Shown here: one piece after another, positions 14,346 through 41,195 of the stretch
Layout: each line of letters starts with the position of its first letter
Position numbering within the stretch: position 1 is the first letter of the stretch
Assembly (NCBI RefSeq): GCF_947072685.1
Contig: NZ_CAMTIK010000017.1
Span: forward strand, 1-42,875
DNA from: an uncultured Cetobacterium sp.
Lineage (GTDB): Bacteria; Fusobacteriota; Fusobacteriia; Fusobacteriales; Fusobacteriaceae
Direction of reading: 5' to 3'
Length of the DNA stretch: 42,875 nt
Translations under genes and position numbers: made by a program
Notes under the pieces: model-generated
Seen by the model: the letters and a program-made list of their open reading frames with translations, nothing else
The model's database searches: none
What the model was told of the DNA's origin: nothing

Positions 14346-14346
14346 A

Positions 14347-15336
14347 ATGAAACTGGCTATATGGAGTGTAACAAGAGGAGCCGGATTTATTGGAGTTGGA
14401 ATTTCAAAAAAAATTCCAAACTCCACCCTTTTCACGCTGAATAAATTTAATATAGATGAAAGTATTCAAATGGAAAACTTTACAGAAACTTTAAATGAAA
14501 AATTTCATGAATTTGATGGACATATATTTATAATGGCAACAGGAATTGTAGTTAGAAAAATATCTGAATTGATTGTTTCTAAAGATACAGATCCTGCAGT
14601 TGTTGTAATAGATGAAGGATTAAATTTTGCAATATCTCTTTTATCAGGACATTTAGGTGGTGCAAATGAACTTGTAGAACACCTAGGAGGTCGTTTAGGA
14701 GTGGTACCTATAGTTACAACGAGCTCAGATATAACAGGAAAAATAGCAGTTGATACTCTATCTCAAAAATTAAAATGTCAATTAGAATCGCTTGAGAAAG
14801 CCAAAAATATAACAGCTTTAATAGTGGATGGGAAGGATATAGAGTTGCATTTACCCAGAAATATATGCTCAGAGGGATGTAGTGAAGGAGTTATAGTTGT
14901 TTCAAATCGTGAGAAAGTAGAAATGATACAGTTATACCCTCAAAATATTATAGTAGGTATAGGTGCTAGAAGAGGTATCGAAAAAGAGATTATCTTTGAT
15001 TTTTTAAAAGAAATATTTAATAAAAATAATCTTTCCTTAAAAAGCATTAAACATTTTGCTACAGTAGATTTAAAAGCTGATGAAGTTGGAATTTTAGAGG
15101 TAGTAAAAGAGTTGGGTAAAGAGTTAAAAATTGTTTCTCGAAGTGAAATTTTAGAGGTTGAAAATTTATTTGAAGGATCAGATTTTGTAAAAAAAGAGAT
15201 AGGAGTTAGAGCGGTATCAGAACCATGTGCTTTTTTAACTTCTTCAAAAGATGGTAAGTTTTTAGAAATGAAAGCAAAATATAAGGGTGTAACCCTTTCA
15301 ATTTATGAGGAGAGATTTATATATGAAAAAAGGTAA
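14347..15336 (+). CDS. cbiG: Cobalt-precorrin-5A hydrolase CbiG
   Basis: CbiG opens the delta-lactone of cobalt-precorrin-5A with release of acetaldehyde, the step that marks the anaerobic route. The start chosen is ATG 14347, giving 329 residues. An in-frame ATG 66 bases upstream lies inside cbiF and gives a non-homologous leader. Landmarks are MATGIVVRKISELI, DPAVVVIDEG, SLLSGHLGGANEL and the C-terminal GIGARRG with ATVDLKADE. The site AAAGGAAT precedes the start. It overlaps the cbiH start by 14 bases. Confidence 0.94.
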   Translation: MKLAIWSVTRGAGFIGVGISKKIPNSTLFTLNKFNIDESIQMENFTETLNEKFHEFDGHIFIMATGIVVRKISELIVSKDTDPAVVVIDEGLNFAISLLSGHLGGANELVEHLGGRLGVVPIVTTSSDITGKIAVDTLSQKLKCQLESLEKAKNITALIVDGKDIELHLPRNICSEGCSEGVIVVSNREKVEMIQLYPQNIIVGIGARRGIEKEIIFDFLKEIFNKNNLSLKSIKHFATVDLKADEVGILEVVKELGKELKIVSRSEILEVENLFEGSDFVKKEIGVRAVSEPCAFLTSSKDGKFLEMKAKYKGVTLSIYEERFIYEKR

Positions 15337-16054
15337 GATATACGTAGTAGGAATTGGACCAGGAAACATGCAAGATATCACTGTAAGAGCATATAACACT
15401 TTAAAAAATGTGGATGTTATCGCGGGATATATAACATATATTGATTTAGTAAGGGATGAATTTTCAGAGAAAGAGTTCTATGTTTCTGGAATGAAAAAAG
15501 AAGTAGCGAGATGTGAGCAGGTTTTAGAAATTGCAAAATCTGGTAAAGATGTTGCTCTTATAAGTAGTGGAGATGCTGGAATATATGGTATGGCTGGAAT
15601 AATGATAGAGGTTGCACAAAAAGAAGGATATGACGTTGAAGTTATTCCTGGAGTTACTTCATCAGTTGCAGGAGCCGCTATCGTGGGGGCACCACTTATG
15701 CACGATCATGCTACGATAAGTTTAAGTGATCTTTTAACTGACTGGGATGTAATAACAAAAAGAATAGATAAGGCAGCTGAAGGGGACTTCATAATATCTC
15801 TTTATAATCCTAAAAGTAAAGGAAGAACAACTCAAATAGTAGAGGCTAGAGAATTAATGTTAAAACATAAAGCGGAAAAAACACCAGTAGCTCTATTAAG
15901 ACATGTAGGAAGAGAGGAAGAGAATTATACTCTAACAAATTTAGGTGAATTTTTAAATCATGATATAGATATGTTTACTGTAGTTGTAGTAGGAAATTCT
16001 AAAACATACATTTCAAATGATAGAATGATAACTCCAAGAGGATATCATATATGA
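15323..16054 (+). CDS. cbiH: Cobalt-factor III (C17)-methyltransferase CbiH
   Basis: CbiH methylates C-17 with ring contraction. The chosen start is ATG 15323 (243 residues), because the strong site GAGGAGAG at 15307-15314 sits 8 bases before it; an ATG 18 bases upstream lies before that site. Landmarks are VVGIGPGNMQDITVRA, VIAGYITYIDL, ISSGDAGIYGMAG, VIPGVTSSVAGAA and SLYNPKSKGR. It overlaps cbiG by 14 bases and cbiJ by 4. Confidence 0.95.
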   Translation: MKKGKIYVVGIGPGNMQDITVRAYNTLKNVDVIAGYITYIDLVRDEFSEKEFYVSGMKKEVARCEQVLEIAKSGKDVALISSGDAGIYGMAGIMIEVAQKEGYDVEVIPGVTSSVAGAAIVGAPLMHDHATISLSDLLTDWDVITKRIDKAAEGDFIISLYNPKSKGRTTQIVEARELMLKHKAEKTPVALLRHVGREEENYTLTNLGEFLNHDIDMFTVVVVGNSKTYISNDRMITPRGYHI

Positions 16055-16791
16055 TTTGGGTTATAGGTGGAACAAAGGACTCTAGAGATTTTATAGAGTC
16101 CTTTCCTTTTAAAGAAAAACTGATAGTTACTACTGCAACAGAGTATGGTGGTAAATTATTGGAGGGGTTTAAAGAGTTAAAAGTTTTTTGTAAAAGAATG
16201 GACCAGAAAGAGATGGTTGAATTTATAAAAGAGATGAAAATAGAAAAAATAGTAGACTTATCTCATCCCTATGCTATAGAGGTTTCTAGAAATGCAATTG
16301 AATGTTCTGAAACTTTGGAATTGGAGTATATAAGATTTGAAAGAGAAAATCTCTTTCATGAAAATGGGATTTTAGAATTTAAAGAGGTTAATTCTTTAGT
16401 GAAGTATATTGAAGAACTTGATGGAAATATATTTGTGACGTTGGGAAGCAATAATATTGAAAAATTTAAAGGATTAAAAAATTTACAAAAGATATATTTT
16501 AGAATTTTACCAAAATGGGATATGATAAAAAAGGTAGAAGATATAGGAGTTTTGCCAAAAAATATAGTTGCAATGCAGGGGCCATTTAGTAAAGAATTAA
16601 ATATTGCAATGATGAGGCAACTGGATATAAAATATATGATAAGTAAAAAAGGTGGGAATACTGGAGGAGAAAAAGAAAAGCTAGATGCCACGTTAGAAGT
16701 AGGAGCTAAATCTATTTTATTATCTAGACCAGAGATAGAATACCCCCTAGAATTCTCAAATCTGTTGGAACTTTTAAAATATATGAAATGA
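16051..16791 (+). CDS. cbiJ: Cobalt-precorrin-6A reductase CbiJ
   Basis: CbiJ reduces the macrocycle of cobalt-precorrin-6A using a nicotinamide cofactor. The 246-residue protein starts with WVIGGTKDSRDFIE, and DLSHPYAIEVSRNA and the late KYMISKKGGNTGGEKEKL region are typical of CbiJ/CobK. It starts in an ATGA overlap with cbiH and is the last gene of the operon. Only a weak AT-rich terminator (16874-16903) follows. Confidence 0.94.
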   Translation: MIWVIGGTKDSRDFIESFPFKEKLIVTTATEYGGKLLEGFKELKVFCKRMDQKEMVEFIKEMKIEKIVDLSHPYAIEVSRNAIECSETLELEYIRFERENLFHENGILEFKEVNSLVKYIEELDGNIFVTLGSNNIEKFKGLKNLQKIYFRILPKWDMIKKVEDIGVLPKNIVAMQGPFSKELNIAMMRQLDIKYMISKKGGNTGGEKEKLDATLEVGAKSILLSRPEIEYPLEFSNLLELLKYMK

Positions 16792-16873
16792 ATATATAGG
16801 AGTAAATTTTATTTATAAGACAGTAATGATATTTATATGTACAATAAATAATTAAATAGTATAAAAAATATGT

Positions 16874-16903
16874 TAAATGTAATCTTGCAAAACATTTATT
16901 TTT
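16874..16903 (+). terminator. Possible weak terminator after the cobalamin operon
   Basis: TAAATGT (16874-16880) pairs with ACATTTA (16892-16898) around an 11-base loop, followed by a T-run. The stem is short and AT-rich, so this is tentative. No better hairpin is seen between 16792 and 16960. Confidence 0.4.
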
Positions 16904-16961
16904 AATATACTTACTATTCACCCCATATATAGTTGAACTATTCATTATTTATATAATGTCA

Positions 16962-16990
16962 TTGACATTTTATATGAAAAGAGGTATATT
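16962..16990 (+). promoter_or_regulatory. Promoter of the small secreted protein gene
   Basis: TTGACA (16962-16967) and TATATT (16985-16990) are separated by 17 bases, a near-perfect housekeeping promoter. The predicted start lies about 27 bases before the start codon. Confidence 0.8.
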
Positions 16991-17023
16991 TACTCTATAA
17001 GAAATATATGGAGGAAGATATAG

Positions 17024-17266
17024 ATGAACAAGAAAATTGTATATGTTATTTTAGGAATGGCTGTAGCTATTAATATATATGCAAAGGGTTTAAAGAGTGA
17101 TACAACTGAGGATAGACAATTTTCTTTGAAGAGATCTACAATTGCAAAAACAACAGAGATTTTTAATTATTTAAATAAAAGTTCAGAGTTAAAACCTATT
17201 ACTGAAGAAGGACTTTCAGATGTAAGTAATCAAAATGTGAATTTTGTAATAAACAAAATGAGATAA
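17024..17266 (+). CDS. Small predicted secreted protein, unknown function
   Basis: I do not recognise this 80-residue protein. Residues 1-20 form a Sec-type signal peptide (MNKK, then a hydrophobic core), with a likely cleavage after the Ala of NIYAKG. The mature part is about 60 residues, polar, and has no Cys and no repeats. It has a very good ribosome binding site (GGAGGAAG), a near-consensus promoter and a bidirectional terminator, so it is a single-gene unit rather than a chance frame. It follows the cobalamin operon but need not be related to it. It could be a small periplasmic protein. Confidence 0.7.
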   Translation: MNKKIVYVILGMAVAINIYAKGLKSDTTEDRQFSLKRSTIAKTTEIFNYLNKSSELKPITEEGLSDVSNQNVNFVINKMR

Positions 17267-17296
17267 ACTATTTTAGATAAAGTGTGATGATGAAAT

Positions 17297-17328
17297 AAAA
17301 AAAGACTGAGTAGACGCAGTCTTTTTTT
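17297..17328. terminator. Bidirectional terminator between convergent genes
   Basis: AAAAAAAGACTG (17297-17308) pairs with CAGTCTTTTTTT (17317-17328) around an 8-base loop. A-run and T-run flanks allow it to serve both the small secreted protein gene and the minus-strand TudS-like gene. Confidence 0.85.
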
Positions 17329-17337
17329 ATTTTATAA

Positions 17338-18264
17338 CTATCTATCGGGTTTGTAATTTATTGGAGAACTCTTGAAAAATAGATTCGCTTTTCTGGCTTC
17401 TTTCTCGACTCCTAAGAGCTCTTCTGCAATATGTGTCATATTTCTTAAAATATGAGGTTCAAAAACATTTTCAACAATAATCCCCTCTTTATTTTTTAAA
17501 TCAATATAATTTTTCCAAAGATATTTTTTTATATTTTCTATTTCGGCAGGCTTTCTGAGAAGTGTTAAAAAGTCCTCTTTTATTTTATTAAATTCCACGT
17601 TGTCGATGGCTTCTTTTTTTAATACTTCATGAAATTTATTTTTTAGTTTGGTTGTTTCCTCTTCGTGTAGTTCATAGAGAACATATTTGATCTTATCCCA
17701 AATCTCTTTTAGAGAATCTTTTGAACAAATGTTTTGTTCCTTTACCCAAACGAAGGCAACGAGTCTTCTTTTCCAATCCCACCATCTAATAGGGCTTTGT
17801 AAATCAACAGAGCTTATTAAAAAAATGTTCCTATCTAGCAAAAGAGCTCCAAAAACTCCAGGTGGATTTCCGAGTCTTTGATTTTTTAAACTTGTTCTAT
17901 AAACACCGCAAGATGGACTTCCTTCCATAAAAATATATGCATCAATATTTGCTCTTTCAAGAGTTTCCAAACAAGCATGAGCCCCACTTTTAATCACTTC
18001 AGATTTATTTTTACCCTCTTTATTTTTAATTATAGCTTTTCCTCTCCAAAAATCAAAACCATCGCCTCCAGAGAGTTTAATACTCGCTCGAGGGACACCC
18101 ATTCCACTCATAATTTCAGGGCAGACAGGGGTCCAAATGAATTGCCCTCTATCTCGACCTAGACATTGAGTTAAATCAATACCTTTACCATTGTATCTAA
18201 CTTTAGATCCAAATTGGCAAGCAGATATTCCTATTCTTAACTTTCGTTTTAATAAATTCTCCAT
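17338..18264 (-). CDS. DUF523 (TudS-like) plus DUF1722 fusion protein
   Basis: The N-terminal half (about residues 8-150) matches DUF523. It has C16 in GISACQFGSKVRYNG, C48 in VCPEIMSGMGVPR, and a third Cys near 118 in EGSPSCGVYRT. These are the three cysteines that hold a [4Fe-4S] cluster in characterised TudS thiouracil desulfurases. The C-terminal half is DUF1722 (YbgA-like), of unknown role, with FHEVLKKEA and the EIENIKKYLWKNY region. The fused order is common in bacteria. The start at 18264 has AAAGGAG upstream and lies 14 bases after the Ca2+-ATPase gene, so both are one transcript. Desulfurase activity is inferred from the family. Confidence 0.85.
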   Translation of the reverse strand: MENLLKRKLRIGISACQFGSKVRYNGKGIDLTQCLGRDRGQFIWTPVCPEIMSGMGVPRASIKLSGGDGFDFWRGKAIIKNKEGKNKSEVIKSGAHACLETLERANIDAYIFMEGSPSCGVYRTSLKNQRLGNPPGVFGALLLDRNIFLISSVDLQSPIRWWDWKRRLVAFVWVKEQNICSKDSLKEIWDKIKYVLYELHEEETTKLKNKFHEVLKKEAIDNVEFNKIKEDFLTLLRKPAEIENIKKYLWKNYIDLKNKEGIIVENVFEPHILRNMTHIAEELLGVEKEARKANLFFKSSPINYKPDR

Positions 18265-18278: not shown

Positions 18279-20840
18279 TTATTTTGTATTTCGTCGAATA
18301 AATCTAACTAATTCATTAAAAAAAATAATACTACAGCTAAAAGAAATGATTTTAAAGTATTCGTAGAAACTTAACTTATGGACAGAGAAAAATTCTGGAA
18401 GAAATATGTTAATAGTTATTTGAACAAAGAACATTAGACAGAATACAATGTTAAGATTTCTATTGTCAAAAGCTCTATTTAGAATAGATGTTTTCCCAAT
18501 TTCTTTACAATTAAAAACATTTATTATCACCATAAATGTGAAAAAGTTAAAGATATAAGTGGGAATGTAAAAAGGAGGTATTTTTAAAAATCTGATAATA
18601 AATGTAGAAAAGCAAACAATGAAAAGAGAATTACTAAGAGTATTGATCCACATATTTGCAGTTAAAATACTTTTTTTCTTATCTCTTGGTTTTTCTTGCA
18701 TAATATTATCTCTAGTTTTTTCAAATCCTAGTGAAATTGCTAGAGGACCGTCCATCATTATATTTATCCAAAGGATTTGTATTGGTCTTAGAGGAGTAGT
18801 CCAGTCAAAAATTTCAAAAAGTAAAATTAAAAAAAGAGCACTTAAATTAACAGTTTGTTGAAATTGAATAAATTTTTGAAAATTTTCATAAAGACCTCTT
18901 CCTTCTTTTATTGCTTTTACAATGGTAGCAAAAGAGTCATTTAAAAGAACTATATCAGCTGTTTCTTTAGCCACTTCAGTACCAGTAATTCCCATTGATA
19001 TACCAACTTCAGCTCTTTTAAGAGCAGGAGCATCGTTGACACCATCTCCGGTAACAGCCACAGACTTTCCAGATTTCATTAAAGAATCCACAATCCTTAA
19101 CTTTGTCATGGGATTGCTTCGTGCAATAATTGAGATGTTTTCGAGTTGTAGTTGGAGCTCGTTATCTGTCATTTTATCAATATCACTAGCCTCAAGAATT
19201 AAATTGTTTGTTTTTATTAGATTTAATTGTTGAGCAATTGAAGTTGCTGTAAAAAGATTATCGCCTGTCAATATTTTTATATCTATGCCAGCATCTTTAC
19301 AGATTTTAATTGCAGGAAAAACTTCAGGTCTAATAGGATCTGTAATAGCCATGAAACCATCAAAAATAAGTTTTTTTTCAAAGTTTATCTCTCCATCAAA
19401 ATGAGAATTGTCATCAATAATAGAGTGAGCAAAAGCAATGATTCTTTTAGCTTGTTTTTGATATTGCTGAATCTCCTCTTCAACTTCTTGTTTATTTTCA
19501 ATATTTAAAGATTCTAAAATTATTTCAGGGGCACCTTTGATCAAATATATAAAACGATCTTCAAACTTAATAATTGTACTCATTTTTTTCTTTTCAGAGC
19601 TAAAAGGATATTTGTGAATGACTGAAATATTTTTAGGAGGCTCTTCAAGGGTTGTGTGATTTAAAAGAGCTACTTCTGTGGGATTACCAAAATATTTATC
19701 GATACCATTTTCATTTTTTAAAAAAGAGTTATTATTAAATTTAATATTTAAAAGCAAAAATTGATTATTAATGATAAAAGAATCTGTGACAGTCATTTTA
19801 TTTTGAGTGATTGTTCCAGTTTTATCAGAACATATTAAATCAATAGATCCAATAGCTTCACAGCTAACTAATTTTTTAACAAGAGCATTTTCTTTACTGA
19901 GTTTAATCATAGATAAGGCAAGAGTTGTTGCAACCATAGTAGAAAGACCTTCTGGAATAGTAGAAACGATTAAAACAATACTCAAAGTTAAGGCTTCGAT
20001 GATATTCTCTAAAGATATTTTTTGATGAACGCTAAAATTAAATATTTTTAATAAAAATACGACAATAGCTATAGATGTTCCAATTAAAGCGATTTTTTTG
20101 CCTAAAAGACCCAGTTCTTTTTGTAGCGGTGTTAAAATTTCATAGTCTTTTTGAATTGATTTGGATATCTTTCCAAATTCGGTATTATCTCCAGTATTTG
20201 TTATGACAAATTGACCGCTTCCATCAACAACATACGTTTCGGCAAATACTTTAAAATCAAGATTTGAATCTAAAGAAAAAATTTGTTTTTTAACGGGAAA
20301 ACTTTCGCCTGTTAAAATGCCCTCTTCTACTTCCAAGTTAAAGCTTTCAATGACAACTCCATCGGCTGGAATTTTATCTCCAATACTTAAAATAATAATA
20401 TCACCGGGATAAATATTTTCTTTAGAAATTTCTAAAATTTTATCATCTCGAATAGTTTTTACAAAAGTTTTTTCACCAATCTTTTTAAGAAGGTCAAAAG
20501 ATTTTTGAGATTTCATCTCCATAAGAACAGTTATAGAGCTAGCTAGAATAACAGACAGAGTAACCCCGATAGTTTCAGGCCAGTCAGGGGGTTCGCCTTT
20601 AGAAATTTTTAGAAAATTTATTATAACAGTTAAAAATATTGCGAAAACTAAAACTTTTACCATAGGTTCTGAAAGAGCGACAATAACTCTTGTAAGGAAA
20701 GTTTTTTGTGGGATATCAGTAATTATATTTTTGCCAAATTTATTTTCTTTAGACTCTAATATTGATGAATTTAATCCAGTAGAAGAACTATCAAGTTCTT
20801 CTAAAAAATCTTTAATTTCTTTAGAGAATAGATTGTGCAT
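18279..20840 (-). CDS. Cation-translocating P-type ATPase, Ca2+ type (P2)
   Basis: This 853-residue P2-type ATPase probably exports Ca2+ from the cytoplasm. Visible elements in order are an N-terminal cation-ATPase domain, the actuator motif ILTGESFPV, and the M4 motif IPEGL. The phosphorylation site SDKTGT follows, with the Asp near residue 339, then the hinge TGDGVNDAPALKRAEVG, and M6 residues in NIMMDGPLAISLG. The PEGL and N..D pattern is that of Ca2+ pumps rather than Mg2+ or heavy-metal pumps. It starts at ATG 20840 after AAGGATGG. A 35-base palindrome overlaps its leader. It is divergent from the envelope operon and cotranscribed with the TudS-like gene. Confidence 0.92.
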   Translation of the reverse strand: MHNLFSKEIKDFLEELDSSSTGLNSSILESKENKFGKNIITDIPQKTFLTRVIVALSEPMVKVLVFAIFLTVIINFLKISKGEPPDWPETIGVTLSVILASSITVLMEMKSQKSFDLLKKIGEKTFVKTIRDDKILEISKENIYPGDIIILSIGDKIPADGVVIESFNLEVEEGILTGESFPVKKQIFSLDSNLDFKVFAETYVVDGSGQFVITNTGDNTEFGKISKSIQKDYEILTPLQKELGLLGKKIALIGTSIAIVVFLLKIFNFSVHQKISLENIIEALTLSIVLIVSTIPEGLSTMVATTLALSMIKLSKENALVKKLVSCEAIGSIDLICSDKTGTITQNKMTVTDSFIINNQFLLLNIKFNNNSFLKNENGIDKYFGNPTEVALLNHTTLEEPPKNISVIHKYPFSSEKKKMSTIIKFEDRFIYLIKGAPEIILESLNIENKQEVEEEIQQYQKQAKRIIAFAHSIIDDNSHFDGEINFEKKLIFDGFMAITDPIRPEVFPAIKICKDAGIDIKILTGDNLFTATSIAQQLNLIKTNNLILEASDIDKMTDNELQLQLENISIIARSNPMTKLRIVDSLMKSGKSVAVTGDGVNDAPALKRAEVGISMGITGTEVAKETADIVLLNDSFATIVKAIKEGRGLYENFQKFIQFQQTVNLSALFLILLFEIFDWTTPLRPIQILWINIMMDGPLAISLGFEKTRDNIMQEKPRDKKKSILTANMWINTLSNSLFIVCFSTFIIRFLKIPPFYIPTYIFNFFTFMVIINVFNCKEIGKTSILNRAFDNRNLNIVFCLMFFVQITINIFLPEFFSVHKLSFYEYFKIISFSCSIIFFNELVRFIRRNTK

Positions 20841-27410: not shown

Positions 27411-27455
27411 AATACGCTCTTAAGTTGTAAATTTCACGACTTAAGAGCGTATTTT
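27411..27455 (+). terminator. Strong hairpin ending the envelope operon
   Basis: AATACGCTCTTAAGT (27411-27425) pairs perfectly with ACTTAAGAGCGTATT (27439-27453), a 15-bp stem with a 13-base loop, followed by only a short T-run. The -35 of the mgtA promoter abuts its right arm. Confidence 0.75.
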
Positions 27456-27482
27456 GTTAAGACCACTTTTAAAGGATAAAAT
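27454..27482 (+). promoter_or_regulatory. Promoter of the Mg2+ ATPase gene
   Basis: TTGTTA (27454-27459) and TAAAAT (27477-27482) are 17 bases apart, directly after the terminator hairpin. The leader to the start at 27535 is then only about 45 bases, too short for an M-box type Mg2+ riboswitch. Confidence 0.65.
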
Positions 27483-27534
27483 ATATTTGAGGAGTACTAT
27501 AAAAATAAGTAGTCTAATTTTAAAGGCGGTGCAT

Positions 27535-30150
27535 ATGGAAAAATATGAAATGGAAAAGCAGATAAAACAATCATTGATATTCTATTCAAAATCTAATATA
27601 GAAGCTTTATATCAAGAGTTTAAAAGTGGAGAAGAGGGATTGAATTCAAATATCGCAGAGGAAAAATTAAAGATATATGGACTAAATGAAATATCTAGTC
27701 AAAAATCTAAAGTGTGGTATATTCAATTGTTTTTAGCATTTATAAATCCATTTAATTTTATACTGGGGACCTTAGCTATAGTTTCAATTTTTACGGATGT
27801 AATTTTTGTCAGTAAAGAAAATAGGAGTTGGGTTTCTATATTTTTAATACTATCTATGATTCTTGTCAGCAGTTTAATAAAATTTATACAGGAGTATAAA
27901 TCCAATAAAACAGCGGAACATTTAAAAGCATTGATAGTGACTAAGGTTTCAGTTTTAAGAGATAGTGTTTGGAAAGATATAGACTTAAAAAAAATTGTAC
28001 CTGGAGATTTGATAAAATTAGCAGCAGGAGATATTGTACCTGGAGATTTAAGAGTTATTAAAAGTAAAGATTTATTTATAAGCCAATCGGTTTTAACAGG
28101 GGAATCAGATCCTGTAGAGAAGTCTGTAAATTTAGCAAAAGAAAGTATTATAATATCTGAAATATCCAATTTGGCATTGATGGGAACAAATGTACTCAGT
28201 GGGTCTGCTGTGGGGATAGTTTTACATACAGGTGGGATGACGTTTTTAAGCACAATAAGTGAAAGCTTAAGCGGAGTGAAGATTGAAACTAGTTTTGAAA
28301 AAGGGATTGATGATATCTCAAAACTTTTAATTAAGTTTATGTTTTTAATGGTTCCAATTGTATTTTTTATAAATGGATATTTAAAAAATGAGTGGTTTGA
28401 ATCTCTTCTTTTTAGTTTATCTGTTGCAATTGGATTAACACCAGAGATGTTACCTATGATAGTGACTGGAAATTTGACTAAAGGAGCTATTGAGCTATCT
28501 AAGAAGAAAACAATAGTAAAAAAACTTGATTCAATACACAATTTTGGAGCAATGAATATCCTTTGTACTGATAAGACAGGGACTTTAACACTGGATAAAG
28601 TATCTGTTGTAAAATATTTAAATTTACATGGAGAACAAGATGAAAACGTGTTATATTTTGGATATTTAAATAGTTTTTTTCAAACAGGATTAAAAAATCT
28701 TATGGATAGAGCAATTCTTGATTTTGAAGATCAGCATTCGCATATAAAAAATGAATATAAAAAAATAGATGAACTTCCTTTTGATTTTGATAGACGAAGA
28801 ATGTCAGTTATTTTAGAAAATAACTCAAAACAAAGAGTTATGATAACTAAGGGAGCTATTGAAGAGATGTTGGCAATATCTAAATTTGCAGAGATTGATG
28901 GAGTAATAATGCCTTTGGAAGATGAGGTAGGTAATAGAATAAAGAGTTTAGTTAATGATTTGAATAATGACGGAATGAGAGTTATAGGAATCAGTAAAAA
29001 AATACTATCGATGGAAAGAGAGTTGAATTTTACAGTTAAAGATGAAGCAGATGTAATTTTTATAGGAGTTTTAGGATTTTTAGACCCAGCTAAGGACGGC
29101 GTTGGAGATGTTTTGAAATCACTAAGCGAGTATGGTGTGAGTGTTAAAATTCTTACAGGAGATAATGAATTAGTTACTAGAAAGGTTTGTAGAGATATAG
29201 GAATTGATACAAGTAATACAATAGATGGCGAGCTAATAGACAGTTTAAAAGATATCGAATTGAAAAAACTTTTGAACAACACTACAATATTTTGTAAATT
29301 ATCACCGACAAATAAGTCTAGGATTATAAAGCTACTCCAAGAGATGGGAAATACAGTTGGATTTATGGGGGATGGAATAAATGATTCCCCTGCTTTAAGA
29401 CGGGCGGATGTTGGAATATCCGTAGATACAGGGGTAGATATAGCTAAAGAATCAGCTGAAATAATTCTTTTGGAAAAGGATCTAACTGTTTTATTAGAAG
29501 GGGTTATTGGTGGAAGGAAGGTATTTACAAATATGACAAAATATTTGAAAATGACAGCTTCATCAAATTTTGGAAATGTCTTTAGTGTAGTTATAGCGAG
29601 TGCATTCTTACCATTTTTACCAATGTTACCAATCCAGATATTGTTTCAAAATCTTTTGTATGATATCTCACAAATCTCAATTCCATGGGATAATGTAGAT
29701 GAAGATGAGATTTTAAAACCTAAAAATTGGAGTGCAGAAAGCATAGGGACATTCATGATATATATAGGTCCTATTAGTTCTATTTTTGATGTATTAACAT
29801 TTTTATTGATGTTTTATGTATTTAAGGCAAATACGATAGAGACACAGGCACTATTTCATACGGGCTGGTTTATAGAGAGTATTCTTTCGCAAACACTGAT
29901 AATTCATTTGATAAGAACAAGAAAAATACCATTTATAGAATCTAATGCCAATATAAAAGTGATATTATTGACCTCTATAGTGATGATATTTGCAATAATT
30001 GTACCCTATACAAGATTAAATATAAGTCTAGGATTTGTTCCAATTACACCATCTTATTTTATGTGGGTTGCTTTAATGTTGTTTGGATATTTTCTTCTTA
30101 TTTTAGCTATGAAAAAATATTATATTAAAAAATTTAAAAATTGGTTGTAA
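27535..30150 (+). CDS. mgtA: Magnesium-translocating P-type ATPase MgtA
   Basis: This P3B-type ATPase imports Mg2+. The chosen start ATG 27535 gives 871 residues and has AAAGGCGG just upstream; an earlier in-frame start at 27454 lies inside the promoter. Landmarks in order are the actuator motif VLTGESDPVEKS, the MgtA-specific M4 motif GLTPEMLPMIVTGNL, and D346 in LCTDKTGTLTLDK. These are followed by KILTGDNELVTRKV, GFMGDGINDSPALRRADVG, and a C-terminal membrane domain. M4 clearly separates it from the Ca2+-type pump at 18279-20840. It follows the envelope operon on the same strand but has its own promoter. Confidence 0.94.
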   Translation: MEKYEMEKQIKQSLIFYSKSNIEALYQEFKSGEEGLNSNIAEEKLKIYGLNEISSQKSKVWYIQLFLAFINPFNFILGTLAIVSIFTDVIFVSKENRSWVSIFLILSMILVSSLIKFIQEYKSNKTAEHLKALIVTKVSVLRDSVWKDIDLKKIVPGDLIKLAAGDIVPGDLRVIKSKDLFISQSVLTGESDPVEKSVNLAKESIIISEISNLALMGTNVLSGSAVGIVLHTGGMTFLSTISESLSGVKIETSFEKGIDDISKLLIKFMFLMVPIVFFINGYLKNEWFESLLFSLSVAIGLTPEMLPMIVTGNLTKGAIELSKKKTIVKKLDSIHNFGAMNILCTDKTGTLTLDKVSVVKYLNLHGEQDENVLYFGYLNSFFQTGLKNLMDRAILDFEDQHSHIKNEYKKIDELPFDFDRRRMSVILENNSKQRVMITKGAIEEMLAISKFAEIDGVIMPLEDEVGNRIKSLVNDLNNDGMRVIGISKKILSMERELNFTVKDEADVIFIGVLGFLDPAKDGVGDVLKSLSEYGVSVKILTGDNELVTRKVCRDIGIDTSNTIDGELIDSLKDIELKKLLNNTTIFCKLSPTNKSRIIKLLQEMGNTVGFMGDGINDSPALRRADVGISVDTGVDIAKESAEIILLEKDLTVLLEGVIGGRKVFTNMTKYLKMTASSNFGNVFSVVIASAFLPFLPMLPIQILFQNLLYDISQISIPWDNVDEDEILKPKNWSAESIGTFMIYIGPISSIFDVLTFLLMFYVFKANTIETQALFHTGWFIESILSQTLIIHLIRTRKIPFIESNANIKVILLTSIVMIFAIIVPYTRLNISLGFVPITPSYFMWVALMLFGYFLLILAMKKYYIKKFKNWL

Positions 30151-33931: not shown

Positions 33932-33960
33932 TTGACAAGATATTTTTTTTGATGTATATT
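33932..33960 (+). promoter_or_regulatory. Promoter of the GH4/GH38 sugar locus
   Basis: TTGACA (33932-33937) and TATATT (33955-33960) are separated by 17 bases, a near-perfect consensus. A palindromic operator follows directly after the -10. Confidence 0.85.
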
Positions 33961-33961
33961 T

Positions 33962-33975
33962 GTTGTATATACAAC
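33962..33975. promoter_or_regulatory. Palindromic operator, likely for the GntR/UTRA regulator
   Basis: GTTGTATATACAAC is a perfect 14-base palindrome starting 2 bases after the -10, covering the predicted transcription start. Its TTGTATATACAA core resembles operators of TreR-like members of the GntR/HutC (UTRA) family. Such a regulator is encoded at the end of this locus (40467-41195). A half site TATACAA follows at 33977-33983. Confidence 0.7.
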
Positions 33976-34001
33976 TATACAAATTTTGAGGGGTGAGTTT
34001 T

Positions 34002-35330
34002 ATGAATAAAAAGGAGTTTACTATAACGATTGCAGGTGGTGGAAGTACTTGGACACCAGGTCTTTTAAAGGCTCTTTGTAAAAGAAAAGGGACTTTTCCA
34101 CTAAAGAGAGTTGTGCTTTTTGATAACAATACAGAAAGACAAGCGGTTATCGGAGAATTTGCAAAAGTTCTTTTTAAAGAGGAATATCCAACAGTGGATT
34201 TCGAATATACAACATCTCCAGAGGTAGCCTTTACAGGAACAGATTTTATATTTTGTCAAATCAGAACTGGTGGATATAAAATGAGAGAGCTAGATGAAAA
34301 AATTCCTTTAAGTCTTGGAGCTATTGGACAGGAAACTTGTGGTCCAGGTGGTTTTGCCTATGGTATGAGATCTATTGGAGATATGATAAAACTTATAGAA
34401 GAGGTAAGAAAGTATGCTCCAGATGCTTGGTTTTTAAATTATACAAACCCAGCTGCTATCGTGGCAGATGCACTTAAAAAAGCTTTTCCAAATGATAATA
34501 AAATTTTAAATATCTGTGATCAACCAATAAACCTTCTTAGATCATACGGTAGACTTTTAGGAATGGATTCAACTGAGTTTGAACCTGTTTATTTTGGCTT
34601 AAATCACTTTGGATGGTTCACAAATATATATGATAAAAATGGAGTGGATTTAGTTCCTAAATTAAAGGATATAACTTTAAATTCTGGATTTAAACCAGCT
34701 GATGCCGAGCAAAGAGATCAGTCTTGGCTTGACACATATGCAATGGTAAGAGATATGCTGGTTGATTTTCCTGACTATATGCCAAATACATATTTACAAT
34801 ATTACTACTATCCAGAGTATAAAAAGTCAAAGCTTAATCCAGAGTACACTAGAGCTAACGAAGTTATGAATGGAAGAGAAAAAAGGGTATTTGAAGAGTG
34901 TAAAGAGATTGCTACAAGAGGAAGTATGGGAGAATCCAATGTAGTTCATAACGATGCTCACGGAGAGATGATTGTTGAAGTTGCTGAATCTATCGCCTTC
35001 AATGAAAATAAAGTCTATATAGTAATAGTTCAAAATAATGGATTAATCTCTAACTTAGATGATGATGTAATGGTTGAAGTAGCAGCTAATTTAGGTATTA
35101 ATGGCCCTAGAGCATTTGGAGTAGGAAAGATTGGAACATTCTACAAAGGACTTATAGAACAACAATTTGCTTATGAAAGATTAACAGTTGAAGCATGGTT
35201 TGAAGGATCGTATTCTAAAGCACTTCAAGCACTAACATTGAATAGAACAATAGTTGATGCTAAAAAAGCTAGAAGGATTTTAGACGAATTAATTAAAGCA
35301 AATAAGGATTATTGGCCAACATTAAAATAA
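34002..35330 (+). CDS. GH4 6-phospho-alpha-glucosidase
   Basis: This NAD+- and Mn2+-dependent GH4 enzyme is predicted to split phosphorylated alpha-glucosides after PTS import. The start ATG 34002 (442 residues) is preferred to an in-frame GTG at 33993, which lies inside the ribosome binding site GAGGGGTGAG. Landmarks are the NAD loop IAGGGSTWTPGLL at residues 8-20, GQETCGPGGFAYGMRSI, NYTNPAAIV, the metal ligands C172 in NICDQP and H202 in GLNHFGW, and RANEVMNGREKRVF. These positions agree with the known Cys and His ligands of GlvA-type enzymes. The alpha preference is inferred from similarity to GlvA/MalH; the natural substrate is unknown. Confidence 0.9.
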   Translation: MNKKEFTITIAGGGSTWTPGLLKALCKRKGTFPLKRVVLFDNNTERQAVIGEFAKVLFKEEYPTVDFEYTTSPEVAFTGTDFIFCQIRTGGYKMRELDEKIPLSLGAIGQETCGPGGFAYGMRSIGDMIKLIEEVRKYAPDAWFLNYTNPAAIVADALKKAFPNDNKILNICDQPINLLRSYGRLLGMDSTEFEPVYFGLNHFGWFTNIYDKNGVDLVPKLKDITLNSGFKPADAEQRDQSWLDTYAMVRDMLVDFPDYMPNTYLQYYYYPEYKKSKLNPEYTRANEVMNGREKRVFEECKEIATRGSMGESNVVHNDAHGEMIVEVAESIAFNENKVYIVIVQNNGLISNLDDDVMVEVAANLGINGPRAFGVGKIGTFYKGLIEQQFAYERLTVEAWFEGSYSKALQALTLNRTIVDAKKARRILDELIKANKDYWPTLK

Positions 35331-35353
35331 TATGTTAATATTTAATTAACATA
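35331..35353. repeat. Inverted repeat between GH4 and RpiR genes
   Basis: TATGTTAAT (35331-35339) and ATTAACATA (35345-35353) form 9-base arms with a 5-base spacer. It begins at the base after the GH4 stop codon and lies 20 bases before the RpiR start. It could be an operator or an mRNA-end hairpin; no T-run follows. Confidence 0.5.
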
Positions 35354-35373
35354 AAAGTAAAAGGGTGGTTTCA

Positions 35374-36090
35374 ATGGAGTATAAAGTTATAAATCTATTA
35401 CAAACAAGAGAATTAAAAGCAAAATTTACTAAAAGTGAGGAGAGCATTTTAGATTTTATCGAAAAAAACTTCAATAAGATTCCTAAATACTCTGTAATTA
35501 AACTATGTACAGAAGCTTATGCCTCTCAAGCAAGTGTAAATAGAGTTTGTAAAAAACTTGGATTTAAGGGGTTTAGTGAATTGAAATACTCCATTGAGCA
35601 GGATTTAGAAAAGATGGAAAGTTCAAAAAGTCTAAGTATGAACAATACATTTTTTTATATAAAAAATATAAATTTTCAAGATGTTCAGGGAATAGCAGAA
35701 ATAATAAAAGAAAATCGGAAAATATTGATATATGGACTAGGAGCTTCTCAGATAACAGCTTCATATTTTCAAAGACAGTTACTATATCTAGGATTTCAAA
35801 CTATTGTGGTGAGTGAGGAAAGAATGATAGAACAGTTTGATGATTTTATACTTTTTATTTTATCGAGCTCAGGAGAAACTTTAAGAGTTAAACATGTAGC
35901 TAAAAAATTTAAAGAAAGTGGAAAAACTGTCATAGCTATAACAAAAGCTGAAAGTTCACTCGATGAACTGTGTGATTTTACCTTTACCCATAATATTTCA
36001 ATAGATAAATTAGACGCTATATCTCGGGAACAACAGCTACATATGATAATTATGGTTAATGAGTTAATAAATAGAATTCAAAACGGATAA
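35374..36090 (+). CDS. RpiR/MurR family transcriptional regulator
   Basis: This 238-residue regulator has an N-terminal RpiR helix-turn-helix (about residues 10-80, with ASQASVNRVCKKLGFKGFSELK) and a C-terminal SIS domain (ILIYGLGASQITASYFQRQLL, LSSSGETLRVKHVAKK) that binds phosphosugars. The start ATG 35374 follows AAGGGTGG; an in-frame GTG 9 bases upstream overlaps that site and is rejected. It lies between the two glycosidase genes on the same strand. Its operator may be the inverted repeat at 35331-35353 or the palindrome at 36085-36096. Activator or repressor action cannot be read from sequence. Confidence 0.92.
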   Translation: MEYKVINLLQTRELKAKFTKSEESILDFIEKNFNKIPKYSVIKLCTEAYASQASVNRVCKKLGFKGFSELKYSIEQDLEKMESSKSLSMNNTFFYIKNINFQDVQGIAEIIKENRKILIYGLGASQITASYFQRQLLYLGFQTIVVSEERMIEQFDDFILFILSSSGETLRVKHVAKKFKESGKTVIAITKAESSLDELCDFTFTHNISIDKLDAISREQQLHMIIMVNELINRIQNG

Positions 36091-36096
36091 TTATCC
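36085..36096. repeat. Short perfect palindrome at the RpiR stop codon
   Basis: GGATAATTATCC is a perfect 12-base palindrome that includes the RpiR stop codon (36088-36090). It lies 36 bases upstream of a TATAAT (36132-36137) that may be a -10 for the GH38 gene, so it could be an operator. Short AT-rich palindromes do occur by chance. Confidence 0.35.
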
Positions 36097-36168
36097 ATAA
36101 AATAGGATTACAATATTTTGTTCTATTAGATTATAATAGTTTTAAAAAAAGAACAAAGAGGTAATTAA

Positions 36169-38733
36169 ATGAGTAGAGATATAAAGTTATTGATGCATAC
36201 GCATTGGGATAGAGAATGGTATTTTACAAAAGCTGAAACACAGGTACTTCTGAGAAATCACATGTTTGAAGTTATTGAATTTTTAGAAAAAAATGAGGAT
36301 ATAATCTATATTTTAGATGGTCAAAGCATAATGCTTGATGATTTTATAGAATTCGCTCCAAAATGGAGAGAGAGAACAGAAGATTTAGTGAAAAAAGGGG
36401 CACTTAGAGTGGGCCCTTGGTACACTCAAACAGACCTACTGCTAGTACATGGAGAATCTATTATTAGAAATCTATACTATGGTATAAAAAAAGCTAGTGA
36501 GTATGGAGATGTGATGAACGTAGGATATGCACCAGATACTTTTGGTCATTCAGCTCAAATGCCACAGATATATTCTCAATTCGGAATAGATAGTACTTTT
36601 TTCTGGAGAGGTTATAGTGAACTGAAAGCTGAAAAATCAGATTTTCTTTGGAAAGGTATCGATGGAAGTGTCATATTTGGAGTTAATTTAGCTACTGGTT
36701 ATCAAGGAGCTAAATATTTAGAAAGTGATAAAGATGAGTTAAAAGTTAGAATGGATAAGATAATGAAAGTTCTGGATAAGTATTCAGCCGGAGATGCTAG
36801 ACTTATAATGAATGGTCATGACCAAATGCCAATTCAAAAAAATATCCATTCAATCATGGAAAATATAAAAGATTTTTATAGTGAAGATAATGTTTCTATC
36901 TCGGACTTTGAAAGTTATATAGAAAGTTTAAAAGGGTTAGTTTTAGAAAGTGTAGAGGGTGAATTAAATCATAGTAAACACGCAAGAATTCATAAGACTA
37001 TAACATCGACTAGAATGGATATAAAACTACTAAATACTGAGTTGGAATATAAAATTTATAATATTTTAGAGCCACTAGCTTTACTCGGAAAAGAATTAAA
37101 TATAGACTATCCACATGAGATATTTGAAAAGTGTTTAAAAGAACTTTTTGGAGCCCATGCTCATGATAGTATCGGAGGATGTAATTCTGATCTAGTAAAT
37201 AGAGATATAAAACAAAGATTGACTCAGATAAAAGAGATATTAGATACTCAAATTGAACTTTATATGAGACTTATATCTTTAGCTTCTACTAATGAAGACA
37301 GAGATATAATAACTCTTTATAACTATTTGCCATACAAAAGATACAATGAAAAAGTTGAAATTGAATTTATTACAAGGACTAGTGATTTTAAGATTTTTAA
37401 TGGAGATAAAGAAATAAAATATTTGCTATTAAATCAAGAGATTGTCGATGCAGGTCTTATAGATAGACAAGTGGCTGCAAGACTTTTAGACATTAAAGTT
37501 TTCAAAAGTAAGATTACCTTTATAATAGATGAAATTGATGGGTTAGCAGTTAAATATTTAAACTATAAAGATGGCGACGACCACTCATTGAAGTTTGAGA
37601 AAAAATCTGATACATATATAGAAAATTCTTTCTATAAAATATCTGTAGAAAATAACAAACTTAATCTTTTGATAAAAGATGAAAAAAGGGTTGTCGAAAA
37701 TGTATTCTATATTGAAACTAGTGGAGATGCAGGGGATAGTTACGATTATTCACCTCCTCATAAAGATTTAGTTTTAGATTCTAAGGATGTAAAAATAGAA
37801 AATTGTGAAGTTTTAAAATCAAATATTCAATCTATTTTAAACTATGATTTAGTATACAATCTTCCTAAAAATCAAGATTCAAGAGATTTAAAAGTTTTAG
37901 ATGGCGAGGTTAGATTTAATGTAAGCATCTCTTTAGAGAAAGAAGATGTAGCAAAATTAGATATAGATTGTACAAACTACCTAGAAGATACAAGGTTTAG
38001 AGCTGTTTTAAATACAGAGATTTTAACAGAAACAGTGGAATCTGATTCACATCTTTGCGTAGTTGAAAAACCAGTATATTTAAAAAAAGAATTAAATATT
38101 TGGGAAGATGATAAATGGGCGGAGAAACCAGTATCCATTGAAACTTTCAACTCATACGTATCACTTAAAAATGAAGAAAAAGAAGCGACAATGTTCTCAT
38201 ATGGATTAAAAGAGTATGAGGTTGTAGATAAAAAAATATTTATAACTCTATTCAGAACTTTCTCACATCTAGGGAAGAGAGAACTTATAAATAGACCTGG
38301 AAGACCTTCTGGAATAGAAATTGAAACTCCAGATAATCAGTTATTTAAAGAAAAGTTTAATTTTAAATTAGGATTTACTTTTATAAAGACTGATAAAAAT
38401 AATAGTGAGAAAGCAAAAGAGTTTTTAACTCCAGTAATGGGATATCAATTAAAAGAATTTAATAGATTCAATATCAATATTCCAAACGTTAGAAAAAATA
38501 TAACTACTAATTTAGAGTTAAAACTAAACGGGTGTGTATTAAGTACAATAAAAGAGAGTGAAAAAACTGGTGAAACATTTATAAGAGTGTTCAATCCAAC
38601 AAAAGAAAAAGTAGAATTATTATTTAACGAGGGAGTTTTCTTAAGCAATATGTTTGAGGAAAAGTTAGAAACATTAAAAAAATATAAAATAAAAAGTCAG
38701 GAGATTTTAAATATATTAATTGAGAGAAAATAG
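36169..38733 (+). CDS. GH38 alpha-mannosidase (MngB-like)
   Basis: This 854-residue GH38 enzyme is near the size of MngB, which splits 6-phosphomannosylglycerate after PTS import. All key sites are visible. Zinc ligands H12 and D14 lie in MHTHWDREW, the predicted nucleophile is D123 in YAPDTFGHSAQMPQ, and NGHDQMP and the zinc His in GAHAHDSIGGCNSDLVN follow. A long beta-rich C-terminal region completes it. No signal peptide is present, so it acts in the cytoplasm, probably on PTS-imported phosphosugar. It starts after AAAGAGGTAA. The PTS gene begins 16 bases after its stop. The substrate may differ from mannosylglycerate because the PTS here is of another family. Confidence 0.92.
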   Translation: MSRDIKLLMHTHWDREWYFTKAETQVLLRNHMFEVIEFLEKNEDIIYILDGQSIMLDDFIEFAPKWRERTEDLVKKGALRVGPWYTQTDLLLVHGESIIRNLYYGIKKASEYGDVMNVGYAPDTFGHSAQMPQIYSQFGIDSTFFWRGYSELKAEKSDFLWKGIDGSVIFGVNLATGYQGAKYLESDKDELKVRMDKIMKVLDKYSAGDARLIMNGHDQMPIQKNIHSIMENIKDFYSEDNVSISDFESYIESLKGLVLESVEGELNHSKHARIHKTITSTRMDIKLLNTELEYKIYNILEPLALLGKELNIDYPHEIFEKCLKELFGAHAHDSIGGCNSDLVNRDIKQRLTQIKEILDTQIELYMRLISLASTNEDRDIITLYNYLPYKRYNEKVEIEFITRTSDFKIFNGDKEIKYLLLNQEIVDAGLIDRQVAARLLDIKVFKSKITFIIDEIDGLAVKYLNYKDGDDHSLKFEKKSDTYIENSFYKISVENNKLNLLIKDEKRVVENVFYIETSGDAGDSYDYSPPHKDLVLDSKDVKIENCEVLKSNIQSILNYDLVYNLPKNQDSRDLKVLDGEVRFNVSISLEKEDVAKLDIDCTNYLEDTRFRAVLNTEILTETVESDSHLCVVEKPVYLKKELNIWEDDKWAEKPVSIETFNSYVSLKNEEKEATMFSYGLKEYEVVDKKIFITLFRTFSHLGKRELINRPGRPSGIEIETPDNQLFKEKFNFKLGFTFIKTDKNNSEKAKEFLTPVMGYQLKEFNRFNINIPNVRKNITTNLELKLNGCVLSTIKESEKTGETFIRVFNPTKEKVELLFNEGVFLSNMFEEKLETLKKYKIKSQEILNILIERK

Positions 38734-38749
38734 CAAAAGGGGTATTAAT

Positions 38750-40366
38750 ATGCAAAATTTAAAAAAAGGTCTTCAAAGTTTTGGAAAAACATTATTATTT
38801 CCAATATCAATATTATCATTTATGGCAATATTTTTGGGATTATCAGCAGCTTTACAAAATCCAAATATAGTTCAGTTCCTACCTTTCCTTCAGGGAAGTG
38901 GAGCACAAACGTTTTTAGGGTTTATCAGAAAATTAGCTGGAATCCCATTTGGACAACTTCCACTATTATTTGCTATGGCTATTCCACTTGGAGTTGTTAA
39001 AAGAGATAAAGAAGTTGCGGTTTATTCATCAGTTGTTGGTTATATAGCCATGTTAGTTGGTATGAACTATCTTTTAGGGGTACAAGGATATAATTCATCT
39101 ACAACTAGCGTAAAATATTTGATGGATACAGTAGGCATGTCAGCAGTTGATGCAACTCTTCATAACTCACAATTTACAAATGTTCTAGGAATCTTTGTAT
39201 ATAATATGAATGTTATTGGTGGTATGATTGCCGGAATTTTGGGTGTTGTTATTCATAATAAGTTTAGACAAATAGAACTACATCCATCACTTACATTCTA
39301 TAGTGGAAAAAGATTTGTTCCTATAGCTGCAGCACTTTTTATGCCTTTAGTGGGAATGGCTTTAGTTCATATATGGCCACTTATAAATGATGCTATCATG
39401 AGTTTGGGAACAGTAATATCAAAATTTCAAATTTTTGGAGTTTTTCTATATGGATTTTTAGAAAAAGCAATAAATCCAACTGGACTTCATCATATTTTAA
39501 ACCAAGCTTTTAGATTTACAGCTCTTGGTGGAATTGAAAATGTGGCAGGACATACTCAAGTTGGTGCTTTAAATATTTATTTTGCTGAATTAGAAAATCA
39601 TGTAGTTTTCTCTCCAAGAGCCACTCAATATTTAGCTCAAGGAAAAATTTTACATATGGTCTTTGGAATGCCTGCAGTTATATTTGCAATGTATAAGTGT
39701 GCTTTACCTGAAAAAAGACAACAGCTAGTTAAATATTTTATTCCAGGATTAACAGCAGTTATTTTAACAGGAATAACTGAGCCTATAGAGTTTACTTTTA
39801 TATTTATATCACCGATGCTTTGGTTTGTTAACTCAATTCTTGCAGGACTATCATTTATGATACCAGCTATGTTTAATGTTACAATAGGAAATATTCAAGG
39901 TGGAATAATTGACTGGTTTGTATTTGGAACTTTGCAAGGAATGCAGACAAAATGGTATTTATACTTGTTCTTAGGCCCAATCTTCTTTGGACTTTACTAC
40001 TTTGCATACAGCTTTGTAATTAAAAAATTTAATGTTATGACAATGGGAAGAAGTTATAGTGATTTTGAAGAAGTTGAAGAGATTTCAAACGATGATAAAG
40101 TTTTGGGTACAGAGGACAGTAAAGTTGCTGAAAACTTAATAACTGGTCTTGGAGGAATTAAAAATATTGTTGATGTAGATAACTGTATCTCTAGACTTAG
40201 AATAGAGATACAAGATAAATCTTTAGTTAATGAAGAACTTATAAAAAAATCTAAGCCAAACGGAATTATTATTCCTGACAACAACAACGTTCATATAGTT
40301 TATGGTGGAAGAGTTACTAAAATGAGAAATCTTGTTGATGACTATATATTTTCAGCAAAAGCTTAA
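38750..40366 (+). CDS. PTS EIICB transporter, glucose/maltose superfamily
   Basis: This 538-residue protein imports and phosphorylates a sugar. Residues 1 to about 420 are the EIIC membrane domain (FGKTLLFPISILSFMAIFLGL, AIPLGVVKRDK, the GITEPIEFTFIF motif). After a charged linker, residues about 455-535 form an EIIB domain with the phosphocysteine C479 in DVDNCISRLRIEI. No EIIA domain is fused, and none is encoded nearby, so a EIIA from elsewhere must serve it. The start ATG 38750 has AAAGGGG upstream; an in-frame earlier start lies in the GH38 end. It resembles maltose/alpha-glucoside EIICB more than the fructose-family MngA. A terminator follows. Confidence 0.92.
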   Translation: MQNLKKGLQSFGKTLLFPISILSFMAIFLGLSAALQNPNIVQFLPFLQGSGAQTFLGFIRKLAGIPFGQLPLLFAMAIPLGVVKRDKEVAVYSSVVGYIAMLVGMNYLLGVQGYNSSTTSVKYLMDTVGMSAVDATLHNSQFTNVLGIFVYNMNVIGGMIAGILGVVIHNKFRQIELHPSLTFYSGKRFVPIAAALFMPLVGMALVHIWPLINDAIMSLGTVISKFQIFGVFLYGFLEKAINPTGLHHILNQAFRFTALGGIENVAGHTQVGALNIYFAELENHVVFSPRATQYLAQGKILHMVFGMPAVIFAMYKCALPEKRQQLVKYFIPGLTAVILTGITEPIEFTFIFISPMLWFVNSILAGLSFMIPAMFNVTIGNIQGGIIDWFVFGTLQGMQTKWYLYLFLGPIFFGLYYFAYSFVIKKFNVMTMGRSYSDFEEVEEISNDDKVLGTEDSKVAENLITGLGGIKNIVDVDNCISRLRIEIQDKSLVNEELIKKSKPNGIIIPDNNNVHIVYGGRVTKMRNLVDDYIFSAKA

Positions 40367-40386
40367 TACAGAATATTAAAATTTGG

Positions 40387-40418
40387 GAAGCTAGTATAAA
40401 ATGCTAGCTTCTTTTTTT
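40387..40418 (+). terminator. Terminator after the PTS gene
   Basis: GAAGCTAG (40387-40394) pairs with CTAGCTTC (40404-40411) around a 9-base loop, followed by seven T. It separates the PTS gene from the GntR gene, which therefore either has its own promoter or relies on read-through. Confidence 0.85.
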
Positions 40419-40466
40419 GAAAATATGTTAAGATATTATAAAAATATAGATTAGGAGGCTTTTATA

Positions 40467-41195
40467 ATGATTGATAAAAATTCACACATTCCAATATATT
40501 ATCAACTCGAAAGTATTCTATTAGAGATGATAGAAAGTGGAGAATTAAAACCAGGGGATATGGTTCCATCAGAAAATGAGCTTTCAAAAAAATATAGTAT
40601 CAGTAGAATGACAGCTAAAAAAGCGATAGATTCATTGACAGTAAGGGGATTGGTAGAAAGATCCCAAGGAAAGGGGACGTATGTTTCTAGTCATGAAAAG
40701 AAAATAGAGTTACCAATAAATAGACTTCGTGGTTTTACTCAAAGAGTTTGTGAAATGGGATTAACTCCGGAGAATAAAGTTTTAACGTTTGAAAAAATTC
40801 CTTGTCCTAAAAACATCTGTAATATTTTAGGAATTAAAGAGGGAGATAGTATTTGGAGAATGGAAAGAGTTCGGCAAATAGATAAGGTTCCGGCGGTATT
40901 TGAAGAGAGTTATATAAGTGTAAAACTACTTCCAAATTTAAAAGAAAAAAATTTATTAAAATCTAAATTTGATTATATAAAAAGCTTAGGTTTGGAGATT
41001 GGAAATAGTGATAGAGAGATTTCGGCAGAAATTCCCAGTGATTATGTGGCAAGTGCTTTAAAACTTAAAAGAAATGAACCTATTCTTTTGGCAGAAAATA
41101 TCACTTATTTAAAAAATGGTGATATTTTAGAATATTCTAAAATATATTATAATCAAAAAAAATATAGATTTAAGTTTATAGCAGAGGGGAATTAA
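40467..41195 (+). CDS. GntR family regulator with UTRA domain (HutC/TreR type)
   Basis: This 242-residue regulator has an N-terminal winged helix (about 1-75, with PIYYQLESILLEMIESGELKPGD and SRMTAKKAIDSLTVRGLVERSQGKGTYV) and a C-terminal UTRA ligand domain (about 90-240, with IWRMERVRQIDKVPAVFEESY). Members of this type repress sugar operons and are released by the phosphosugar. The start follows AGGAGG closely. The palindrome at 33962-33975 is its likely operator, placing it as repressor of the GH4/GH38/PTS genes. A terminator lies between it and the PTS gene, so its own level is set separately. Confidence 0.92.
   Translation: MIDKNSHIPIYYQLESILLEMIESGELKPGDMVPSENELSKKYSISRMTAKKAIDSLTVRGLVERSQGKGTYVSSHEKKIELPINRLRGFTQRVCEMGLTPENKVLTFEKIPCPKNICNILGIKEGDSIWRMERVRQIDKVPAVFEESYISVKLLPNLKEKNLLKSKFDYIKSLGLEIGNSDREISAEIPSDYVASALKLKRNEPILLAENITYLKNGDILEYSKIYYNQKKYRFKFIAEGN

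Follow-up and report, generated by a model that had tools for sequence, protein, structure and literature searches.

A GH38-GH4 phosphotransferase locus of a Cetobacterium-like genome as a probable operon for mannosylglycerate and glucosylglycerate use

Why a GH4 6-phospho-alpha-glucosidase and a glycoside hydrolase of family GH38 should share a single transporter of the phosphotransferase system (PTS) is the question raised by the right end of the window, i.e. the whole stretch of 42,875 nucleotides analysed here, which belongs to a Cetobacterium-like genome of 2.15 Mb. Five intact genes, spaced 43, 78, 16 and 100 bases apart and equipped with clear ribosome-binding sites, follow each other there on the + strand, encoding GH4, an RpiR regulator, GH38, EIICB and a GntR/UTRA regulator:

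33932-33960, + strand: promoter TTGACA-17-TATATT of the operon beginning with GH4 (11 of 12 consensus positions)
33963-33982, + strand: putative GntR operator TTGTATATACAACTATACAA (conservation with GH4 loci)
34002-35330, + strand: GH4 6-phospho-alpha-glucosidase, CDQP clade (PF02056/PF11975; nearest structures; tree and motif)
35374-36090, + strand: RpiR/MurR regulator with SIS domain (PF01418 and PF01380)
36169-38733, + strand: GH38, MngB-like, i.e. resembling mannosylglycerate hydrolase (NF007331 match; catalytic residues)
38750-40366, + strand: PTS EIICB of the glucose family, in a clade of its own, without an EIIA domain (PF02378 and PF00367)
40385-40413, + strand: terminator-like hairpin (stem of 13 pairs with a downstream T run) at the end of the predicted four-gene operon
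40467-41195, + strand: GntR/UTRA repressor, candidate for the operator at 33963-33982 (PF00392 and PF07702)

The first-pass annotation had described an operon-like run of five genes starting at position 33932. This start is exactly the first base of the promoter, whose -35 box and downstream region are kept among the aligned relatives, and all five genes are present. However, the hairpin between EIICB and the last gene suggests that the operon probably comprises GH4-RpiR-GH38-EIICB and that GntR forms its own transcription unit, although hairpin-plus-T-run patterns of this kind have a mean chance expectation of 2.3 in the region.

We consider it likely that this PTS operon serves the breakdown of two 2-O-alpha-glycosyl-D-glycerates, mannosylglycerate and glucosylglycerate, widespread osmolytes that occur, e.g., in thermophiles, in red algae and in marine cyanobacteria. 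EIICB, served by the single EIIA of glucose type encoded in the genome, would import both compounds and phosphorylate the sugar at C6. GH38 would cut the mannosyl compound after import, and GH4, with NAD and a divalent metal, would release glucose-6-phosphate and glycerate from the glucosyl compound, as its clade and context suggest. The glycerate could be passed to glycolysis by a glycerate kinase; in many relatives its gene lies in or beside the operon, in the present genome on a separate contig. GntR probably represses the GH4-first promoter until the phosphorylated glycoside binds, repression being the presumed direction of regulation.

A GH38 of the MngB kind adjoins an EIICB of this clade in 28 loci from two phyla, a group that also takes in more distant members of the Peptoniphilaceae, and GH4 is present too in 21 of them. 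A search in other genomes had been suggested beforehand; the trio of GH38, EIICB and GH4 occurs in three different gene orders, and co-location kept over two phyla rules out chance neighbours. The order GH4-RpiR-GH38-EIICB is seen in Cetobacterium/Fusobacterium, GH4-GH38-EIICB in Helcococcus and Anaerococcus, RpiR-GH38-EIICB-GH4-(glycerate kinase) in Alkalibacterium and Halolactibacillus, and the same in Proteiniclasticum and Youngiibacter, where no kinase adjoins (the Youngiibacter contig begins just before GH38). Another uncultured Cetobacterium (locus L002) has all five genes, with identities of 88-95%. GH4 is absent from seven GH38-EIICB loci, including that of Trichococcus, which reads RpiR-GH38-EIICB-ManA-EIIA-glycerate kinase. 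A relative of RpiR with 44-94% identity precedes GH38 in most relatives, and on this evidence RpiR is part of the GH38-EIICB core.

Among 96 Fusobacteriales genomes, orthologs of EIICB and GH38 occur in the same eight and are always adjacent; in five of these a GH4 with at least 90% identity joins them, and the three loci without GH4 have glycerate kinase (L105, L107) or ManA (L109) beside the operon. GH4-EIICB without GH38 and GH38-EIICB without GH4 both exist among the relatives. A scattering of GH38 and GH4 to unrelated places in these relatives, named beforehand as the refuting outcome, was not found. An EIICB ortholog was detected in one of 399 genomes of the Alkalibacterium class and one of 391 of the Proteiniclasticum class, each time in the centre genome alone, and this EIICB clade is therefore rare.

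GH38 matches the mannosylglycerate hydrolase model NF007331 with 793 bits over 819 residues, nearly the full length, without reaching the equivalog cut-off of 1138. Its residues H12, D14, D123, D218 and H332 correspond to the zinc ligands, nucleophile and acid/base H13, D15, D125, D232 and H351 of the bacterial alpha-mannosidase SpGH38 used for comparison (PMC2815779), and none of them varies among the 95 relatives compared. By the model match and these residues, the enzyme is of MngB type. The GH38 tree contains a group of 27 beside glucose-family EIICBs and a sister group of 68, in which the large flanking ORF is MngA in 45 of the 46 cases tested. A public-genome scan gave a GH38 group with at least 51% identity, beyond which identity dropped to 38%; GH38 adjoins this EIICB in that group and also in more distant Peptoniphilaceae. 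Taken together, a role of the window GH38 in mannosylglycerate breakdown is highly probable.

The identity of the aglycone is indicated by the neighbouring genes. Glycerate kinase lies within 6.5 kb of EIICB in 14 of the 28 GH38-EIICB loci and within 6 kb of GH38 in 15; it is absent by either count from 13, the window's included, and from all 23 GlvA-type GH4 loci used as a comparison set. The 28 loci are not all independent, but the kinase-positive ones, found in Alkalibacterium, Halolactibacillus, Trichococcus, Helcococcus and Cetobacterium/Fusobacterium relatives, span at least four lineages. In the genomes of Alkalibacterium gilvum, Halolactibacillus halophilus, Trichococcus and Helcococcus, the operon copy is the sole glycerate kinase found. 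Mannose-6-phosphate isomerase (ManA) occurs in two of the 28 loci (L012, L109). Since both enzymes handle products of a glycosyl-glycerate, the aglycone is most likely glycerate, and these genes give good support to the first-pass suggestion that glucosyl- and mannosyl-glycerate are handled as two related osmolytes. The window's genome has one glycerate kinase, on a different contig beside a GntP permease; in L108, a locus of another genome from this family, the operon has a sugar-diacid regulator, a GntP permease and a glycerate kinase as neighbours. In Anaerococcus hydrogenalis, the glycerate kinase is distributed over two frames (G106:C6:3549-4470), possibly as a pseudogene or by assembly error.

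The transporter carries the EIIB cysteine (Cys479) and stays below the cut-off of every NCBIfam EIICB model. The nearest is TIGR02004 malX (455 bits, cut-off 632), and the alpha-glucoside model TIGR02005 gives 221 bits with a cut-off of 607. A second EIICB elsewhere in the genome reaches 906 bits against TIGR02005 and is paired with a GlvA-type GH4; judged by these matches, this pair is an orthodox alpha-glucoside PTS. No other EIICB near the window's clade was found in this genome. The existence of a separate alpha-glucoside PTS and the lack of a second EIICB for the window GH4 argue that one EIICB probably carries both mannosylglycerate and glucosylglycerate. EIICBs linked to GH38 group in a single clade of 27 (100% support), and those paired with GH4 alone fall outside it, except that of L184. 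In this locus of a Peptoniphilaceae-family genome (G954), a decayed GH38, recognizable as collinear scraps (10569-11043; best E = 9e-4), lies between intact EIICB and GH4, which fits a GH4 working with such an EIICB alone. The decay amounts to a natural loss of the mannosyl half.

Bacillus subtilis GlvA-GlvR-GlvC and Fusobacterium MalH are maltose-6'-phosphate systems. The window GH4 residues C172, D173, H202 and Y264 align with C171, D172, H202 and Y265 of GlvA (metal-site Cys/His, catalytic Asp and Tyr), whose sequence was taken from structure 1u8x. The earlier statement that both enzymes have their catalytic residues thus holds residue for residue. The nearest solved structures (6vc6, 1u8x, 6dux) are all 6-phospho-alpha-glucosidases, and the window GH4 belongs with these enzymes by its metal site, Asp, Tyr and closest structures. 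However, the tree splits a CDQP clade (motif in 35 of 35 members, the window's among them) from the GlvA side (CDMP in 22 of 23) with 100% support, so that the window GH4 is, by tree and motif, outside the GlvA clade and not a MalH/GlvA enzyme. The solved relative of the CDQP clade, 6vc6, is annotated as 6-phospho-alpha-glucosidase only.

The GH4s of GH38 loci do not form one clade (AU p = 3e-52) and require at least three label changes on the tree, which could be gains or losses; the pairing with GH38 therefore arose repeatedly or was kept selectively. The Cetobacterium GH4s are sister to the GH4 of a GntR-EIICB-GH4 locus (L171), and those of Alkalibacterium fall among Carnobacteriaceae GH4-EIICB loci and Bacillus L060. 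The latter (8026-17922) has mngA-mngB beside a divergent EIICB-GH4-glycerate kinase run, apparently separate transporters for both glycosylglycerates side by side. In L172 (7732-13263) and L173 (8040-13575), CDQP-clade GH4s without GH38 belong to GntR-GH4-EIICB-glycerate kinase-EIIA operons; elsewhere in the same two genomes, GH38 is followed directly by glycerate kinase (L099, L097). Together with L182, these two and L060 represent dedicated GH4-EIICB operons with glycerate kinase. By contrast, the kinase is not nearby in 9 of the 13 CDQP GH4 loci without GH38, which suggests that part of the clade may act on other alpha-glucosides and makes the assignment of GH4 to glucosylglycerate weaker than that of GH38 to mannosylglycerate. 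We nevertheless favour a 6-phospho-alpha-glucosylglycerate hydrolase as a reasonably likely function of the window GH4.

The putative operator TTGTATATACAACTATACAA sits just after the -10 box of the GH4 promoter and contains a perfect 12-bp palindrome, TTGTATATACAA, or alternatively 7-bp arms TTGTATA/TATACAA. It is kept, with one change in genome G017, in the window and in all four other Cetobacterium/Fusobacterium loci that have GH4. Among 189 loci scanned, the pattern TGTnTAnACAAnTAnACAA matched, beyond these loci, the GntR-GH4 operons L171, L172 and L173 and nowhere else, and every site precedes a GH4 or EIICB-GH4 operon with a related GntR gene nearby. The window GntR is 57% identical to that of L171 and 48% to that of L172. 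This distribution suggests that GntR binds the site at 33963-33982. Neither GntR nor operator was found in L105 and L107, where GH4 is absent from GH38-EIICB, which points to GH4, GntR and operator as a module that, in this lineage, joined an RpiR-GH38-EIICB core as a unit. A one-mismatch match to the operator near the genome's glycerate kinase was no better than chance and was rejected.

The 9 of 13 CDQP loci without the kinase and the seven GH38-EIICB loci without GH4 could also mean that EIICB and GH38 use mannosylglycerate only, while GH4 serves another alpha-glucoside, maltose-like or glucosylglycerol, through the same or another EIICB. This is rather unlikely: the genome already has a second GH4 that belongs to its orthodox alpha-glucoside PTS, operons dedicated to GH4 and EIICB can include glycerate kinase, and GH4 seems to have entered GH38 loci in several lineages. 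Glucosylglycerol might instead be the substrate of GH4, although glycerate kinase would then not be needed. A maltose locus of the MalH/GlvA type is ruled out by the EIICB subfamily, the GH4 clade and the second, orthodox locus, so that the initial likening of GH4 to MalH systems was too loose.

The occurrence of both enzymes behind one EIICB in 21 loci would be compatible with a single substrate, i.e. a mixed glucose/mannose disaccharide or a mannosyl-glucosyl-glycerate that is imported whole and attacked by both enzymes in turn, as the first-pass annotation had offered for a mixed glycoside. We regard this as very improbable and have abandoned it, because each hydrolase is found with EIICB without the other, L184 keeps GH4 and EIICB beside its decayed GH38, and the recurring glycerate kinase has no role for a plain disaccharide. 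Moreover, the PTS adds one phosphate, which would leave the second 6-phospho-specific enzyme without a phosphorylated substrate. Still less credible is a release of 6-phospho-mannose by GH38 from manno-oligosaccharides of N-glycan or alpha-mannan origin. Although other bacterial GH38s such as SpGH38 act on alpha-mannosides (PMC2815779), the window GH38 is far nearer to the MngB model (793 bits) than to SpGH38 (191 bits) or the Enterococcus faecalis GH38 structure (219 bits), and none of the conserved neighbours examined was recognized as a glycan-cleaving enzyme.

The use of two glycosylglycerates, the reading preferred here, places the locus close to the mannosylglycerate PTS MngR-MngA-MngB of E. 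coli (Sampaio et al. 2004, as cited in PMC8490865 and PMC2815779). The two would share PTS import, cleavage by GH38 to mannose-6-phosphate and glycerate, and a GntR-type regulator, which is a repressor in E. coli; glycerate kinase or ManA lies beside many of the loci related to the window's. In contrast to MngA, a fructose-family EIIABC, the window EIICB belongs to the glucose family and needs a separate EIIA; an MngA-type EIIABC next to GH38 is absent from the window and was seen in the sister GH38 set only. Unlike MngB, the window GH38 lies in the separate clade (27 versus 68), and RpiR and GH4 are added. As the locus would work like MngA/MngB with a different transporter, it is a variant rather than a member of that system, by its gene content a transporter-swapped and probably two-substrate one. 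Like GlvA-GlvR-GlvC and MalH, it combines GH4 and RpiR with a glucose-family EIICB in a single operon, but it differs in the TIGR02005 score of EIICB, in CDQP instead of CDMP, in the presence of GH38, in the glycerate kinase of relatives and in the true GlvA-type pair elsewhere in the genome.

Release of glycerate from glucosylglycerate is also known from a mycobacterial hydrolase and a GH13_18 phosphorylase, both of which act on the unphosphorylated compound (PMC6608630, PMC11009771), without PTS or GH4, whereas the route proposed for the window is phosphorylated. In the open literature searched, neither a PTS route for glucosylglycerate nor GH38 with a glucose-family EIICB turned up, and nothing relevant on GH38 or GH4 with a glycosylglycerate PTS; this argues only weakly that none has been described. 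We consider it about evenly balanced whether, in this locus, an undescribed PTS route for glucosylglycerate with GH4 shares one EIICB, which accepts either C2 epimer, with mannosylglycerate use and the GH4 module, which in the window includes a repressor and an operator of its own, was added to the mannosylglycerate core several times independently. If true, the PTS route would explain how fermentative bacteria of the gut and of saline habitats use both osmolytes, offer a candidate substrate for the CDQP GH4 clade with its solved relative 6vc6, and correct the annotation as maltose transport and maltose-6-phosphate glucosidase. It would also be a clear case in which the logic of a glycosyl-glycerate PTS keeps the hydrolase type and changes the transporter family.

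Elsewhere in the window, three tRNA genes, the first of them cut off, lie at the left end of the contig (1-207). A cobalamin riboswitch (RF00174) precedes a long same-strand run with cobyric acid synthase, CbiB, CobB and CbiD (4802-16791), a cobalamin biosynthesis operon. Two P-type ATPases on opposite strands (27454-30150 and 18279-20840), magnesium-translocating and calcium-type, both score above the curated cut-offs.
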